A stretch of DNA of 64,000 nt, taken from NCBI GenBank assembly GCA_016180645.1, contig JACPAV010000002.1:305729-369728 (forward strand), written 5' to 3'. Positions 16,064 through 24,246 of this stretch are shown piece by piece; positions within the stretch are counted from its first letter, which is position 1, and the number at the start of each line of letters is the position of its first letter. The position numbers and the translations under genes are program-made. The DNA comes from Nitrospirota bacterium. GTDB taxonomy: Bacteria > JACPQY01. The notes beneath the pieces are model-generated. The model was not told the origin of the DNA and ran no database searches. It saw only the letters and a program-made list of their open reading frames with translations.

Positions 16064-16342
16064 TTGTACAAGGTCGAATTCCTCGAGGAAGCCGCACAGG
16101 ACTGGCTTGACCTCGATCATTCCGTCCGCAAGAGACTTTTCGCGGCCATTGAACGATTGAGGTCGCATCCCGATCTGTACGGGAAACCTCTCGCCCAGCC
16201 TCTCCACCGTCTGCGACGCATCCGAAGCGGCGACTTCCGAATCGTCTACAGGGTGAACGAAGGAACCAAGACGGTCGAAGTTGGAGTCGTCTGCCACAGA
16301 TCGCAGGTCTACCAAATCGCCCTCCGTCGCCGGCTCGTCTGA
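16064..16342 (+). CDS. RelE/ParE-family toxin
   Basis: 92 residues, starting at TTG. The RelE/ParE fold is clear: YKVEFLEEAAQDWLDLD, helix RKRLFAAIERLRSHPD, LHRLRRIRSGDFRIVYRVNE and a final VCHRSQVYQIALRR. The basic residues in the C-terminal strands fit ribosome-dependent mRNA cleavage by RelE-type enzymes. A ParE-like gyrase poison cannot be excluded. The pair probably stabilises the Dnd island. Confidence 0.85.
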   Translation: MYKVEFLEEAAQDWLDLDHSVRKRLFAAIERLRSHPDLYGKPLAQPLHRLRRIRSGDFRIVYRVNEGTKTVEVGVVCHRSQVYQIALRRRLV

Positions 16343-16751: not shown

Positions 16752-17750
16752 TCAGGGAAATAGCACCTCCGAAAAGGATGGGAAGTATCGATACACCTCC
16801 GCATATCTCTTGACATCCGATTCAGGCACGCCGGGCACGCGCAGTTTTCCTGAGGATATCTTGGGCAACTGCGAGTTAAGATGACGAATTTCTTTCGGCG
16901 TCAGACAGGGCGCCTTTATGTGGCAAGGATCGGAACTGGCGCGAATGAACGGCAACGTATCAAAGTTGCACTCTAGGAATTTCTGCTCCTCTTCCGCACG
17001 GAAAAAGATTCCACCGACCGTAACCATCTGGGCTCCATCCTTGTAGCGGAAGTGAAATAGTTGCCGATATTGGACCTTTTCATTCAGCGGAAGCATTGAA
17101 TTTCGCAAAGATATTTGCTCGGAAATTACGTTATCAATGACCTTGCGAAACACGCTAGCAAGCCCTTGACCACGCAAGTCAGTTCCAGAAGTGCCAGCCG
17201 GCAGTTGCCCCCCCAAAAGCTCCTTGGCGATACGCAGGCGATACTCGTCGAGATCGAACGTTTTGCCAGTTTCCTTTTCATACGTTTCGCGATCCTCCTT
17301 GGCTGGCTCGGCGTCTGGGTGTGCGTTTACGGTGACTACCAACGAACTGCCGCTGGCCGCACGCAGACAGACGGTTGCGATATCCCCCAATATTCCAGTA
17401 TCAAGACGATTCTCGTAGTCCAACCATGCGATGGTGCGACGCCGCCAGTCTATTGTAGGCAGAACCTCACCAGAGTTTGCAAACTTCAATTGTATGCACC
17501 GGTAAGGGCGGTTGAATCGGAAGCAGGCTCTCGACGACGTTTCTTTTTCAATACTCAGCATGTTGGTTATGCCGAGTTCGCGATGGAGGAGTTGGAAATC
17601 GCTGAAGTAGATGGAGCCAAATCCCACGTAGCGGTATTCCTGAATCCGCTGGAAGGGATGCAGACGTTCGAACGCCGCACACAGCATCCTCCGTTCAATC
17701 GCCTTTCCCGGACGCAGTGCATAGTTGATGATTCGGAAGCTGTCCGACAC
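16752..17750 (-). CDS. Rossmann-fold O-methyltransferase-like protein, putative partner of the GHKL ATPase
   Basis: 332 residues from GTG 17750; this codon overlaps the TAG of the upstream gene by one base, implying translational coupling. The N-terminal half looks like a class-I methyltransferase: YVGFGSIYF at 41-49 for motif I, an acidic end of strand 2 (SIEKE, 66-70) and WLDYE at 109-113. Similar proteins are annotated only as putative O-methyltransferase and, from memory, recur beside GHKL ATPases in defence islands. Glycine-rich motif I is atypical, so catalysis is uncertain; it could bind a nucleotide or DNA instead. It is the last gene of the operon. Confidence 0.7.
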   Translation of the reverse strand: MSDSFRIINYALRPGKAIERRMLCAAFERLHPFQRIQEYRYVGFGSIYFSDFQLLHRELGITNMLSIEKETSSRACFRFNRPYRCIQLKFANSGEVLPTIDWRRRTIAWLDYENRLDTGILGDIATVCLRAASGSSLVVTVNAHPDAEPAKEDRETYEKETGKTFDLDEYRLRIAKELLGGQLPAGTSGTDLRGQGLASVFRKVIDNVISEQISLRNSMLPLNEKVQYRQLFHFRYKDGAQMVTVGGIFFRAEEEQKFLECNFDTLPFIRASSDPCHIKAPCLTPKEIRHLNSQLPKISSGKLRVPGVPESDVKRYAEVYRYFPSFSEVLFP

Positions 17751-19114
17751 TATTCTTCCCCTTCGGCTTCGTAGCGCATGAAATATTCGAACGTTTTCTC
17801 CCCAACGCCAGTGAAGGTTTTCGATTTAAGAATCAGCTTGGCTCTCTCAACCTCACTCGCAGGCTTCCAGTATTGAATTCTACACATTCTCGGCCCGGCA
17901 GCGGCGGGAGCCATTGACGGAGCTACGAAATTACCCCCACGCTTAATCATGTTGACCTGTTTCGAGTCGGCGGTCTCGATTGCATTTTCGAGGGGATGTT
18001 GGCCCTCACCGGCAGTCTTTTCCTTGACAAGATTAGTTAGAAAAGTCAGTACCGGCCTGGTCATCTCGATCATCTCGCGCTGGACAGCCTTGTAGACGGG
18101 GGAGTCGGCGTCCACTCCGGTTTTCGTCGTTGTCCAAGGCAGCAAAGAACCATCATCAGAGTCGAGATAAGCGTAGCCACGAAAATAGGCAAAATCAGGA
18201 TGGTATGCCCGCATGTTGTGACGATTCCCCCAGACTGTTGCGTCTGATTGGTCGGCGCGCAATATTAGGCGTCCGTTGCAGAAGACATACCAGCCGCCAT
18301 CGTGGAAGCTACGCTCCGCAACGCCAGCATATAGCCTTACTCGCACCGGCGGGCCCGGCTTACCTACGAGTATTTTGCTCGGATAAGACTTCTCCACATA
18401 GCCGGGCTGCAACATCTTCGAAACAAAAAGCTCCTGCGGATCATGCTTGATCGGCAGACCGTTCAAGGTGATGGCAAGCTCGCGATCCAAAGTTAAGGGG
18501 TGAGCTTGGCTCATCTCCTCTGCAAGCCTGCTCTTAAAGTTATCCAATGCGAAAGTATCCGCAACATTCGCCAGGAGCCGGTCGACCTCGATGCGCGTGC
18601 CGGTGTCCTTCTCCGGAACGTGCAAACCAGTCTCTAGTTCACTGAAAGTGAAGTGCCACTCCTCGGGAGATTGGGCATCAGCCATCCATTGATCCACATC
18701 GACATCCACCGTGAATCGCGCCTCCCTTGTTGTCGAGCGCACGACAAAATGGCGTCCAAGCCTAAAGAAGGTCCGCTTCATGCCTACTCCGAACTGTCCC
18801 ATTGAGCCAGGGGTGCCCTCAGTTTCTTCTGGCCGCCCAAAGCGAAATGCGTAGCCGCGTGCGACATCAACGGGAATTCCGCCACAGTTATCGGCAATGA
18901 GAAAATGCCTAGCATCCAGTTTCATTTCCACCCTTAGCCCGCCATAGTTGCCAGCGGGACGAAGTCTCCGTGCTCCGTCCACCGAATTATCTACGAGATC
19001 AAGAATGGCTCGCGTTAGCGGGATGTCCCTTGTGAGCATGTGAATGAAGAATTCCTTTGTTGGAGACGCATTGATGAGCTTCTGCCCACCTTGGGAGGAT
19101 GAAGTAGGTGCCAT
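17750..19114 (-). CDS. GHKL-type ATPase (MutL/Hsp90/MORC-like), putative Dnd effector
   Basis: 454 residues from ATG 19114, four bases after the upstream stop; the frame is open further upstream but overlaps the previous gene. The Bergerat fold is complete: N box DLVDNSVDG (39-47, with the catalytic-type Asp/Asn pair), G1 DNCGGI (75-80) and G2 GQFGVGMKR (106-114). The middle domain contains a lysine-rich strand region. There is no histidine-kinase H box and no receiver domain, so it is not a sensor kinase. ATP-driven clamp closure on DNA, as in MutL and MORC ATPases of some R-M systems, is the likely mode. Its position after the dnd modification genes suggests a role in restriction or signalling. 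Confidence 0.8.
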   Translation of the reverse strand: MAPTSSSQGGQKLINASPTKEFFIHMLTRDIPLTRAILDLVDNSVDGARRLRPAGNYGGLRVEMKLDARHFLIADNCGGIPVDVARGYAFRFGRPEETEGTPGSMGQFGVGMKRTFFRLGRHFVVRSTTREARFTVDVDVDQWMADAQSPEEWHFTFSELETGLHVPEKDTGTRIEVDRLLANVADTFALDNFKSRLAEEMSQAHPLTLDRELAITLNGLPIKHDPQELFVSKMLQPGYVEKSYPSKILVGKPGPPVRVRLYAGVAERSFHDGGWYVFCNGRLILRADQSDATVWGNRHNMRAYHPDFAYFRGYAYLDSDDGSLLPWTTTKTGVDADSPVYKAVQREMIEMTRPVLTFLTNLVKEKTAGEGQHPLENAIETADSKQVNMIKRGGNFVAPSMAPAAAGPRMCRIQYWKPASEVERAKLILKSKTFTGVGEKTFEYFMRYEAEGEE

Positions 19115-19118
19115 GCGT

Positions 19119-20600
19119 CTACCTCCCCCCATCACGCCAGAATTGGCGGGCTGGGCCGGTGATGAGCTTGCCTTGCAAGCGCAGAGCGGCTTCGGCTTTC
19201 GTGAGTTTCTGATGAACCACACCGCCGAGGATCATTCGTTGTTCGGCGTCTTTCAGCGTGTGCGGCGAGAAGTGGGCTCCGCATTCGGCCAACTCGGCGA
19301 AATTGGTATCGTTGGCGCCCGGCGTCAGGAATTTATCGGCGTCCTGCGAAGCCAGCCAGACGGGGAAGCCCCATGATCGACCCTGCCTCGCGAGCAGGCT
19401 CAGCAGGCCGGCCTTGCTCTCCTTCGGCAGAATCAGATGCGCTTCATCCACAAATAGCACCATCTTGAGAGGCTGGATGTCATTCTTCACGGCCAGTTGC
19501 CGGCTCAATTTCTTGATGAGGAAGTTCAGAATGAGGGCGGCCGACAATGCCTTCGTATCGTTGTCCGTCCCGAACTCCTTGAAATCGATGACCAGGGAAC
19601 CATTCAACCATTCCTCCGGGGTGATCGCGGTCCGGGCGGAGGCGAACAGATTGAACCGCTCGATCTTTTGAACGATGCGCTGTTCAACACCCTCCGTGCC
19701 GCTGTTCACGAGCTCCGCCGACAAGGACGCGAAATCCGGTTCGGCGAGTCGCTGGTAGCAGTCGCTGAGATTGCCCTCCTGTCTAGCGCCGAGTTGCGGC
19801 GCGAAGCATCGGATAAGGCCCGCCATCTCGTAGGCAACCTGGGCATTCTGTGTTGGGTTCTGATGGCGGTAGAGTGGGTTGATCGGCAGGCTCTGCTGGA
19901 TCAGGCGGACATACCGCGCGCCGGTCTGTTCCAGGAAGCGCCTGCGATTCTCCGTCTGCCTTGCGTCCTTGGGATTGTCTTCAAGCTCGCCCTTCATGTC
20001 GAAAAACACGAAACGAACGCCACCATTCGCCGCTTGCGCCAGGAGGTCGAGCGCAAGCTGGCTCTTGCCGCTGCCGGGTTGACCGGAAATCACCAGCAAG
20101 CCGTTGTTCGTGCCCGGACCGTTTACCGACCATTCCGGACCGTCCGTCAATACTTTCAATTTCACTTCGGTCTCGACCACCGGCATCGGTCGAGCGACGG
20201 GCTCCGCGCCGGGAAGCCCAGACTCGCCACTCGCCAAACGCAAGAGAGACGCCACGAACCGGGCCTGATCGTTCCCCGATTCCGACCATATCTGCCCCAA
20301 GCGTTGGCAGCCAAACTCAAAGTGACGACGAAACTCCTGCCGGTACCCGGCTTCGTCGAGGGTCCGTCCGGCCCGGTGGTTCAATGCGGCGCGGACCAGA
20401 TCCCGGAGATCATCGCCGACAACCTGCTCGTCATTCAGCGTCACGCCTTTGGAGTCCTTGGGTTTGTACTCGGTGGGCACGCCCTGCCCCAGAGCGAGGA
20501 AGAGCGCCGCGCGTCCGACAATCGCCTGATTCCGCGCGCCGACGCGGGCAAAGACGTTCTCGATGAACTCGTGAGCTTCGCCGCTGGTCTCGAATTTCAT
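19119..20600 (-). CDS. DndE-like domain fused to a HerA/FtsK-type ATPase
   Basis: 493 residues. The start is ATG 20600, which overlaps the upstream stop (ATGA) and has a purine-rich AAGGAAAAGG before it. Residues 1-105 resemble DndE (RVGARNQAIVGRAALFLALG, GVTLNDEQVVGDD, RRHFEFGCQRL), the nicked-DNA-binding subunit. After a linker comes a P-loop ATPase: Walker A GQPGSGKS (173-180), Walker B VLFVDEAHLIL (near 390) and a LARQGRSWGFPVWLASQ segment typical of HerA. In classical systems DndE is a separate ~110-residue protein and the HerA-like DptH belongs to the restriction set. Here the two are one polypeptide. The DndE part is a remote match. Confidence 0.78.
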   Translation of the reverse strand: MKFETSGEAHEFIENVFARVGARNQAIVGRAALFLALGQGVPTEYKPKDSKGVTLNDEQVVGDDLRDLVRAALNHRAGRTLDEAGYRQEFRRHFEFGCQRLGQIWSESGNDQARFVASLLRLASGESGLPGAEPVARPMPVVETEVKLKVLTDGPEWSVNGPGTNNGLLVISGQPGSGKSQLALDLLAQAANGGVRFVFFDMKGELEDNPKDARQTENRRRFLEQTGARYVRLIQQSLPINPLYRHQNPTQNAQVAYEMAGLIRCFAPQLGARQEGNLSDCYQRLAEPDFASLSAELVNSGTEGVEQRIVQKIERFNLFASARTAITPEEWLNGSLVIDFKEFGTDNDTKALSAALILNFLIKKLSRQLAVKNDIQPLKMVLFVDEAHLILPKESKAGLLSLLARQGRSWGFPVWLASQDADKFLTPGANDTNFAELAECGAHFSPHTLKDAEQRMILGGVVHQKLTKAEAALRLQGKLITGPARQFWRDGGR

Positions 20601-20863
20601 GGGCCTTTTCCTTCCCGAACAAGCCGCTGCCCTGTGGGAGAGGCCCAAAAAGCTGCGAGAACGCCGTCGCGGAATTCTTCGTAAACCCCTCGATCAGCCT
20701 CAAGCATCTTGGCTGCCTTTCGCGCAGCGCGGCGAAACTCAGCCGCAGTTTGCCAGTCCAGCGTACTGTGAAATATCTCGTTGCGCATGATCTCTTCAAT
20801 CATCCCTGCGTCCACCGGACTGCAACCCGTAGCTTCGATGATGTCTTCAGCGTAGCCGCTCAT
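20597..20863 (-). CDS. Small helical protein between dndD and dndE::herA
   Basis: 88 residues, predicted all-helical and acidic. An N-terminal stretch DIIEATGCSPVDAGMIEEIM is followed by HSTLDWQTAAEFRRAARKA and an aromatic C-terminal helix (EFRDGVLAAFWAS). Its stop overlaps the next ATG, and it starts 18 bases after dndD, so it is firmly inside the operon. I remember similar unnamed small proteins beside other genes, without known function. A stabilising subunit or small regulator of the modification complex is plausible. Confidence 0.7.
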   Translation of the reverse strand: MSGYAEDIIEATGCSPVDAGMIEEIMRNEIFHSTLDWQTAAEFRRAARKAAKMLEADRGVYEEFRDGVLAAFWASPTGQRLVREGKGP

Positions 20864-20881: not shown

Positions 20882-22945
20882 TTACAGGTCCTTTCCGAAG
20901 TAGTCGCTTGTGATGCGCACTTCGTAGTTCGGGCTGTCGGGTCTGCCATGCGGGTGCAACGTGTAGGCACGCGCAAACCGGCCACGGGCGCGGTCAAACA
21001 GCGGTCCATCCGGATCAATCTCAGCATTCGTGCTGAGGATGATGGACTGGTGGCCGCTGAGGTAAAGCCGGTCGAGCACGTTGGCGCGGACTTCTTTGTC
21101 GAGGCGGGCCAGTGGCGTGTCCACAACCAGCGGCGGAACGAGCTTGGCCAGACGACGCAGGGCTTCGTAGAACGCCAGCATTCGCACCTGTCGCTGACCG
21201 GCGGACGTGTTCGTTTCCTCCCAGGTAACTTTCCTGCCATCCCGGCGCACGAGCCAGCATTGCCAATGGCCGTCAAAGTCCATGCCCTCGAACTCCCGCT
21301 CCCGCTCGGTAATTTCCACCCACAACTTGCCGACTTCCTCGGAGAGCTTCCGCCGCATCAGAATTGCGGCTCGGCTGCGAATCTCGCCGGCGGCCTCGCG
21401 GTAGCGGGTCGCCATCGCCGCCAAACTTTCGCCCCGCTTGGCACGTTCGGCAATTTCCGACTGCGTCGTCTCCTGGCGTTTCAGATCCACAAGCTCAACC
21501 TCAAGACGCGCGATTTCGGCATCAATATCCTTCAGTCGTTTGGAGATTTGATCGCGGCGAGTGATGAGGCCGCCCCGCTTTTCGTGGAGTTCCACGCCTC
21601 GTTTGTACGCCGCCGTGTTTTGTTGCATCTGTCTCAGCTTCTGGTTCAACTCGCGTAGCTCAACGTCCATTCGGTCGATCTCCGCACACCTGTCCGATAG
21701 GTCGCGAATATCGCTCTGGTTCAGGGCAAGCTGTCGGCGAATCTGCGCACTCGTGTCGTTGCGGTCGGCAATGTAGATGCGGTCGGGCATCCCTTGCGGT
21801 GGTGGATGGAACAGGCTGTGGAGAGCGTCTTCCAATCGCTTCATGTAGAAGGATTCGACATCAGGTTGGAGCTCGAATTCCTTGGGAACACCACCAAACA
21901 CGTCCTGCTTTACCTGCGGAATCTTCGGCTCGACCGTGGACTTGGCGCTTTCCCACTCGCGACGACGTTCCTCGGATAGCAAAGCGCCATGCAATTCCTT
22001 GCAGTAGACCCCAAGCAACGAGACCGGTAGAGCCAACTCCCAAGCTTCTGTGAGTCTGGCTTCGAGTTTGGCTTTGGCCCCTGTAAGTTCGCCGCGGCGT
22101 TCTTGAGCTCTCTGCAACTCATCGGGGTCGACTGCTCCAAGCGTTTTCAAGTCGTCTTCGACTTCAACCAGTTCGGCTTCGACTTCTTTCAAGTCGCGGT
22201 CAAGGGTTTCGCGTTCAAGATGTCTGACCTTCAAGTTGCCCTCCACAGTCCTCACCTTGCTGTTCAACTCGTTGAGGGTCGTCAATGGGTCAGGGCCGCC
22301 GGTGGAATTGAACACGCGTGGGATCTTCGAGCTGATCAGTTGACGGAGATCGTTTTCCAGTTCGGCATAGGCCTGAAGGCCAAGGATTCGACTCACGCCT
22401 TCAACGATGTCCTGCTGTCCCAAGTTGATGGCCTGGCTGCGCTCAGCATCGAAAAAGAAGAACCGCGCCAGATGGCGCGGCAGGAAAGCGTCCCGAAGTT
22501 TGTGTATCTCTTGTTCGTCTTGGATGGTGCCCGGCTTGTCGGACCGTGTGGCATGATGCTCCCAGACTGGCGCCGAGTTGGAGCGGAACCGCACTTGGCG
22601 AAGGATCTCCACTTTCCGACTGCCCACTTTGTCATCGCGGAGACTCACCACCGCCTTGAGACGCACTAAGTCTTTACCTTCAGACAGTGCATGCCGATTG
22701 AGCGACTTCTCGAAGGTGAACCGCGTCGCATCTGACCCAGTCTCCACCTTCTTCAAGTCGCCGACGCCGCTCTCGCCGACCACCGCAAGATATAGGGCGC
22801 GCAGCAGGTGAGTTTTTCCGGCACCATTCTTTCCGCCCACGATAACGCCACACTTGCCCTCAAGACTTCGGAAGTCAACGGTGTGCTCGCCGTAGAATGG
22901 CCCAAAGTTCTCCAGCGTTAGTGAGTCGATATGGACTTCCGCCAT
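20882..22945 (-). CDS. dndD: DNA sulfur modification protein DndD (SMC-like ATPase)
   Basis: 687 residues. Walker A is GGKNGAGKTH (37-46), after the N-terminal strand LENFGPFYGEHTVDF. Two coiled-coil stretches (about 230-320 and 400-510) flank the hinge. The C-terminal lobe has the ABC signature NTSAGQRQVRM and Walker B LVVDTPLARLD followed by D-loop-like residues. This is the DndD pattern of RecF/SMC-type ATPases that supply energy or DNA opening for phosphorothioation. Only two bases separate it from dndC. Length is normal for the family. Confidence 0.92.
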   Translation of the reverse strand: MAEVHIDSLTLENFGPFYGEHTVDFRSLEGKCGVIVGGKNGAGKTHLLRALYLAVVGESGVGDLKKVETGSDATRFTFEKSLNRHALSEGKDLVRLKAVVSLRDDKVGSRKVEILRQVRFRSNSAPVWEHHATRSDKPGTIQDEQEIHKLRDAFLPRHLARFFFFDAERSQAINLGQQDIVEGVSRILGLQAYAELENDLRQLISSKIPRVFNSTGGPDPLTTLNELNSKVRTVEGNLKVRHLERETLDRDLKEVEAELVEVEDDLKTLGAVDPDELQRAQERRGELTGAKAKLEARLTEAWELALPVSLLGVYCKELHGALLSEERRREWESAKSTVEPKIPQVKQDVFGGVPKEFELQPDVESFYMKRLEDALHSLFHPPPQGMPDRIYIADRNDTSAQIRRQLALNQSDIRDLSDRCAEIDRMDVELRELNQKLRQMQQNTAAYKRGVELHEKRGGLITRRDQISKRLKDIDAEIARLEVELVDLKRQETTQSEIAERAKRGESLAAMATRYREAAGEIRSRAAILMRRKLSEEVGKLWVEITEREREFEGMDFDGHWQCWLVRRDGRKVTWEETNTSAGQRQVRMLAFYEALRRLAKLVPPLVVDTPLARLDKEVRANVLDRLYLSGHQSIILSTNAEIDPDGPLFDRARGRFARAYTLHPHGRPDSPNYEVRITSDYFGKDL

Positions 22946-22947
22946 GA

Positions 22948-24246
22948 TTAGGCCTTCTTCTCTGCCTCCTGTTTCGCCAAATCGTCTTTCAAGATGAAGA
23001 GCAGATCGTCCGGGAGGCCGTGGGCGCGGTGGCTTTCGCTGTATTCCTCCACCTTGGCAAGCATCCGACGGAGCGTGTCGGTGTTGATCCCCTTTTCCCG
23101 GGCGATTTCGTCCTCCAGCTCCCGAAGTTTGTTGAGTTCCTTCAGATCCGTGCTCATCATGACACCTCGCTGTTTGTTGAGGATACGGGCGACGCCCCGG
23201 CCGTCATCGGGATCGCGCGCGGCCTTCCACATTTGTTGGATCAAGAGGAGCTCCTCGGAGGCTATAATGGGCAAACGGGTTTCCTCCTGCAACGCGAGCA
23301 ATCGGGCCAGCAACTCACGCCGGGCCTCAATGTGCAAAGGCCCCGGGCCCTTGTCGCCATTCATCCGTTTCATGTCGCGCTTGCCGTTGGCGGGGTCGCG
23401 GTAGAACTGTAGGGTTTCTCGAAATTCGATGAGCTTCTCCATCCGCTCGTCGCCGGCGGCCAGCAGCCCCTCACTGGCTTTGTCGCGATCCACCACGGTG
23501 CAGGTCCAGCAGCCGAAGCGGGAGTTGCCGCAGCTTGGAGTGCTGGTGTCGATCTGAATGGGACATTCACCGTTGGAGGCGCTGGAGTAGAGTTTGTATA
23601 GTGCGCGGTTGTCGCCACCCCAGGGGTTCGGCGTTTGGAGGAGATAGGCCCAAACTTCCTCGGTGGTCAGGTATTCGATTGGATTGGAGACCCACACGCG
23701 CGGCAGGTCCGGGTGACGGCGCAAGCCGTTGCGGGTCTCGATACCCGCCATTGTTTGCGCCCGAGTTGCGCTTTCCTCCCGCCGCGCCCCCAAATGCAGG
23801 ATGGCATCGCCCCAGTGTCCTATCCGTTTCTTTACAAAGTCATTTACCGGATCTATCTTCATCCGCTGAGTACACCAACGAAAGGTGCGATTGGGAGGGG
23901 GGTATCCACGCCCGATGATGTTGACCCAGAACGATTGTTCGGCCGGGGGTTTCAGGAGGTGGGCTTCGAAGTTCAACTCGTTCTGGCTGGAGAACTTCCT
24001 CATTTTGTCGAGCGTGCCCTCTACCATCCCGACGATGGCCGGGATTTCCACGCGCGTGTCCGTACAGAGGAGATTGATCGGCTTCTTGCGATTTTCCCTG
24101 GGGATGGACGCGACCGCGTCGAAGAGGAGCGAGGCCAGCATGGTGCTGTCCTTCCCCCCGCTGAATCCGACGAGCCACGGACGAGGATCCTCGATGTAGA
24201 GGCGGCTGAGGGATTCGCGAATTTCTTGATATCCGCCGGTCACCAC
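22948..24246 (-). CDS. dndC: DNA phosphorothioation sulfurtransferase DndC
   Basis: 432 residues starting at GTG. The ATP-pyrophosphatase loop SGGKDST is at 29-35. Four cysteines (C126 in FRWCTQRMK; C239, C246 and C249 in PSCGNSRFGCWTC) are placed to bind an Fe-S cluster. LGARREES and YL..EEVW are also typical. DndC belongs to the PAPS-reductase/adenylation family and transfers sulfur from DndA to the DNA backbone. It is somewhat shorter than characterised DndC (about 500-540 residues). It is the first gene of the operon; the promoter should lie in 24247-24330. Confidence 0.92.
   Translation of the reverse strand: MVTGGYQEIRESLSRLYIEDPRPWLVGFSGGKDSTMLASLLFDAVASIPRENRKKPINLLCTDTRVEIPAIVGMVEGTLDKMRKFSSQNELNFEAHLLKPPAEQSFWVNIIGRGYPPPNRTFRWCTQRMKIDPVNDFVKKRIGHWGDAILHLGARREESATRAQTMAGIETRNGLRRHPDLPRVWVSNPIEYLTTEEVWAYLLQTPNPWGGDNRALYKLYSSASNGECPIQIDTSTPSCGNSRFGCWTCTVVDRDKASEGLLAAGDERMEKLIEFRETLQFYRDPANGKRDMKRMNGDKGPGPLHIEARRELLARLLALQEETRLPIIASEELLLIQQMWKAARDPDDGRGVARILNKQRGVMMSTDLKELNKLRELEDEIAREKGINTDTLRRMLAKVEEYSESHRAHGLPDDLLFILKDDLAKQEAEKKA

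Follow-up and report, generated by a model that had tools for sequence, protein, structure and literature searches.

The operon in the window

The window (the whole stretch of 64,000 nucleotides that was analysed) contains a compact minus-strand operon with the gene order DndC, DndD, an 88-aa open reading frame (ORF), DndE-HerA, a GHKL ATPase and a Methyltransf_35 protein, DndE-HerA being the fourth gene. The genes are separated by gaps of at most 18 bp or overlap by 4 bp and 1 bp, and a cysteine desulfurase gene is convergent with the operon. The features are as follows.

22948..24246, minus strand: DndC sulfurtransferase, 432 aa, with the PP-loop SGGKDS and a cysteine cluster (TIGR03183 4.9e-112, above cut-off; PADLOC DndC 3.1e-125)
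20882..22945, minus strand: DndD ABC ATPase, 687 aa, with Walker A GKNGAGKT, signature TSAGQ and Walker B LVVDTP (PADLOC DndD 3.1e-60)
20597..20863, minus strand: 88-aa ORF, overlapping the start of DndE-HerA by 4 bp
19119..20600, minus strand: DndE-HerA fusion, 493 aa, with a DndE double ribbon-helix-helix domain (residues ~1-118) and a HerA/FtsK motor (residues ~150-460)
17750..19114, minus strand: putative GHKL (paraMORC-like) ATPase (HATPase_c_3 8.8e-9), with intact N box, DNCGG and GQFGVGMK, and a 55% identical partner in locus L021
16752..17750, minus strand: Methyltransf_35 protein (PF20553, 9.6e-103), 332 aa, 49% identical to its counterpart in L021
14025..15155, plus strand: NifS/DndA-type cysteine desulfurase, convergent with the operon (PADLOC DndA 3e-145; active-site SSGSAC)

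DndC, DndD, DndE-HerA, the GHKL protein and the desulfurase all retain intact active-site motifs. DndD matches TIGR03185 with 2e-47, yet stays under the cut-off, and motif inspection finds no CxC motif in it; the desulfurase is placed just below the cut-off of the NCBIfam NifS model. For the 88-aa ORF no significant match was obtained in Pfam, PADLOC, NCBIfam, PHROGs, plasmids or 385 other genomes. None of the operon genes was recognised as a nuclease. In the host genome, which is 97% complete, there is a single DndE match, and neither DndB (PF14072) nor DndH (one profile, PDLC02684) gave a match. On the plus strand, at 16064-16342 of the window, lies an ORF that by eye resembles a RelE-type toxin.

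The DndE domain and the HerA/FtsK motor in one chain

The DndE-HerA gene is a real ORF that begins with an ATG at 20600 and ends with a stop at 19119. The preliminary description had noticed a DndE-like pattern in the N-terminal part, and the strings quoted there were located at residues 19-38 and elsewhere within residues 1-101. With the whole protein as query, Pfam DndE (PF08870) matches residues 3-101 (E 1.4e-6, 29 bits, cut-off 25), and with residues 1-118 alone the match rises to 33.2 bits (E 6.9e-8, same cut-off). The NCBIfam DndE equivalog model scores under its cut-off (16.9 vs 71.85). When 15 homologous N-terminal domains are combined into a profile, its top PDB matches are the three DndE proteins of solved structure (7x4e, 1.1e-9; 5wtu, 4.4e-7; 4lrv, 5.6e-6).

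The AlphaFold2 model of residues 1-118 is a confident double ribbon-helix-helix (pLDDT 93.9), predicted as two tandem units with a long last helix (strand 2-4, helices 7-16 and 25-39; strand 54-56, helices 57-77 and 83-107). This predicted fold is closest to the same solved DndE proteins, with Z scores of 14.3 for 7x4e, 11.2 for 4lrv and 11.1 for 5wtu, so the N-terminal domain has the DndE fold similarity on which the initial assignment depended. The next matches are chains of the F-plasmid relaxosome (Z 9.0 and below); Rakesh et al. (PMC10853773) likewise compare DndE with TraY of the F plasmid.

The P-loop HerA/FtsK ATPase that had been described behind this domain is likewise there, with Walker A GQPGSGKS (173), Walker B VLFVDEAH (381), an arginine finger (R405) and a sensor glutamine (Q419), the last two being invariant in 16 aligned sequences. 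The gene is thus a DndE domain fused to an intact HerA/FtsK motor. In the model of the full protein, pLDDT falls below 50 for residues 126-137 and 460-493. In structural comparison this model comes closest to the DndH C-terminal domain (7es4, E 1.8e-12), with VirB4 and HerA (4d2i) also among the best matches. PADLOC mad8 (2.3e-17) was set aside as the identity of the protein, the similarity being confined to the motor.

The motor thus resembles that of the DndFGH (DptFGH) restriction system, and the PADLOC DndH profile also matches the L021 homologue of DndE-HerA (1.2e-23). The motor of the window is fused to DndE, whereas that of DndH is joined to the DndH nuclease and other domains. The proximity to the DndH C-terminal fold speaks for a surveillance or restriction role no less than for one in modification. 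TdpAB (PDB 8wfd, 8wet), which has a HerA-like motor, appears in the fold search of the window protein as a weaker match (TM 0.25). TdpAB is tied to phosphorothioate (PT)-sensitive defence in Thermus, and its motor is a separate protein.

Relatives of the fusion and neighbors of the GHKL pair

GTDB genomes were scanned for relatives and 386 genomes were searched, giving 21 distinct loci with the motor; loci L039 and later, which are weak HerA-only matches, were left out, and the first phylum-level search had comprised 2 genomes only. Both domains are kept, with DndE ahead of HerA, in 20 of the 21 loci, so the fusion is the rule in this family; in three the gene contains frame breaks. DndE-HerA nearly always directly follows DndD. 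The sole exception to the domain order is L029 (8950-10032), which has the HerA part alone, DndD and DndE being missing, and is probably a deleted copy. No relative of DndE-HerA was found in plasmids or viral contigs, and none of the window DndC in viral contigs.

Full-length identity is 53% for two homologues, those of L021 (Verrucomicrobiaceae) and L020 (Candidatus Electronema), and in a tree of 16 homologues they group with the window protein with full support; other, long branches leave the deeper placement unsure. L021 has DndC, DndD, DndE-HerA, GHKL and Methyltransf_35 in the order of the window, at 48-70% identity. Its desulfurase gene, 70% identical, is likewise convergent at the same operon end, and the 88-aa ORF is missing. 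The complete layout is thus seen in two loci only, from two distant phyla. L020 has no GHKL pair and consists of DndC, a DndD spread over two overlapping frames, and DndE-HerA, while L022 (Acidobacteria) has DndC, DndD, a DndB-domain protein and DndE-HerA. DndC was identified in four of the 21 loci, namely the window, L020, L021 and L022; some of the others are short.

At least eight DndC-less loci have type I HsdM and HsdS near DndE-HerA (L016, L026, L027, L029 with HerA alone, L032, L033, L035 and L036), and they represent a methylation-linked version of the system. In L029, HsdM-HsdS is shortened and fused. The HsdM/HsdS loci also carry a small protein and often one or more proteins of ~210 aa, one example of which was scanned and has no Pfam family. 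In the DndC-less loci the small ORF ahead of DndD (e.g. L016:13427-13609 and L033:6327-6512) shows homology to the C-terminal tail of DndC, encoded at 22951-23208 of the window (probability 98.1%, E 1e-13 in profile comparison). As an independent check, PADLOC DndC matches the small protein of L033 (4e-9, DndC positions 403-458). This homology suggests that DndC may dock to DndD via its tail, with the small protein as a substitute where DndC is missing. In the literature such small proteins are described as rapidly evolving and mostly disordered.

The pair of GHKL and Methyltransf_35 genes also occurs elsewhere, for the most part on phages, next to DNA methylases, which were checked with Pfam on examples and otherwise recognised by eye. 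Each of the seven viral contigs in which it was found (L100-L106) has a C5 cytosine methylase next to it; the pair adjoins Dcm and Vsr in L085 and L086, and an N4/N6 methylase in L087. In Microvirga the pair lies within a DISARM operon with Dcm and Vsr, and in S. meliloti KH46 it is near a Dcm gene, its second gene being split by a transposase-like ORF. Some of the viral contigs have, by eye, filamentous-phage-like surroundings, and phage PfAC20 has the GHKL gene too.

Prokaryotic MORC/paraMORC genes have been known from restriction-modification operons since 2008 (Iyer 2008, PMC2292703). In that set, as with the pair elsewhere, a GHKL ATPase is found beside DNA methylases and Vsr nucleases; the GHKL protein of the window has the Bergerat-fold ATPase motifs, and its gene stands beside PT enzymes instead. 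Neither phosphorothioation nor HerA is mentioned in the text of that paper. In the literature texts searched there was no report of the pair together with PT genes, Methyltransf_35 was not mentioned by name or accession, and for the Dcm-linked pair no tested function was found.

A DndD-DndE core with sulfur as the proposed self mark

The fusion itself is not new. DndE fused to HerA/FtsK beside a DndD-related ABC ATPase has already been described as 'clade 3' (Rakesh, Aravind, Krishnan 2024, PMC10853773), and the window, matched to it by layout, shares the DndE-HerA/FtsK polypeptide next to a DndD-type ATPase. The main text of that paper, which was searched, has no GHKL, MORC or Hsp90 partner. 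The newer aspect is the context, a compact operon of sulfur-marking enzymes, DndE-HerA and the GHKL-Methyltransf_35 pair. Compared with the DndABCDE phosphorothioation system, the window has a DndA-type desulfurase, DndC, DndD and a DndE domain; its genome gave no DndB match, and DndE forms part of a motor protein. Only about one in two taxa with a Dnd system has DndB (PMC10853773), so it is not obligatory.

The domains, intact motifs, folds, operon layout, persistence of the fusion and varied modification enzymes next to one and the same pair are observed, whereas the function of the locus, with translocation, PT at this site, an effector role of the pair and an order of events, is inferred. 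The locus is best described, at a probability of roughly 0.5, as a PT-based defence variant of the DndD-DndE core, with sulfur in place of methylation as the self mark. The DNA backbone would receive its sulfur through the cysteine desulfurase and DndC, with DndD and the DndE domain selecting the sites. Tethered to a DndH-type HerA/FtsK motor, this DndE domain would also act as a recognition module that loads or halts a dsDNA translocase, which would survey the DNA for the mark. Unmarked DNA would be handed to the GHKL ATPase and the Methyltransf_35 protein encoded in the same operon, and PT would thus take over at this locus the self-mark role of 5mC. The absence of a recognised nuclease in the operon leaves the cutting step unexplained and is the weakest point of this interpretation. 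The restriction of the full layout to two loci, and the lack of the GHKL pair in L020, also count against it.

For the pair, a tentative proposal, held at rather less than even odds, is that it is a modification-neutral effector. The self mark served by it would have been exchanged from 5-methylcytosine, as in the phage-borne Dcm modules and DISARM, to backbone sulfur, and DndE-HerA would be the adaptor motor that enables the exchange.

The preliminary description had called DndE a nick-recognition subunit, a putative role weakened by PMC10853773, where it is argued that DndE has no catalytic residues and that purified DndCDE bypasses nicking in PT synthesis. It had also suggested that modification and translocation are physically linked. 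The latter stands insofar as DndE and the motor are in one chain; it is too narrow for a family with DndC in only four loci, with HsdM in at least eight others that lack it, and with a motor fold nearest to DndH. The corresponding explanation, that the HerA motor drives DndE, DndD and DndC along the chromosome for correct sulfur placement, with GHKL and Methyltransf_35 as accessories, agrees with the presence of DndC in the tightly packed operon and with the union of recognition and motor. We consider it unlikely, since most homologues have DndD and DndE-HerA without DndC, the motor fold is closest to a restriction subunit, and purified standard DndCDE reportedly makes PT without a HerA motor (cited in PMC10853773). 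The scarcity of DndC among the relatives ties the motor to the DndD-DndE core, not to the insertion of sulfur, and, together with the resemblance to DndH, favours surveillance or restriction over pure modification, with DndE as a shared address module.

The core is found beside a variety of partners, or beside none that was recognised, and this would also fit a self-standing anti-invader motor complex of DndD and DndE-HerA that stalls or destroys DNA entering the cell, with DndC and the GHKL pair as mere neighbors through defence-island shuffling. Such an arrangement appears distinctly improbable, given the identical gene order in two distant phyla and the short gaps and overlaps of the operon. 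An ordinary dndE joined to an unrelated ATPase by chance read-through or assembly error is ruled out for practical purposes by the single continuous ORF, the recurrence of the DndE-HerA order in 20 of 21 loci across many phyla and the colinear junction in 16 aligned sequences.

The wider meaning lies in the restriction partner of the many PT systems without DndFGH, for which the GHKL-Methyltransf_35 pair is a concrete candidate. The same pair is found naturally beside different modification enzymes, and DndE-HerA belongs to a core that accompanies both methylases and sulfur enzymes.
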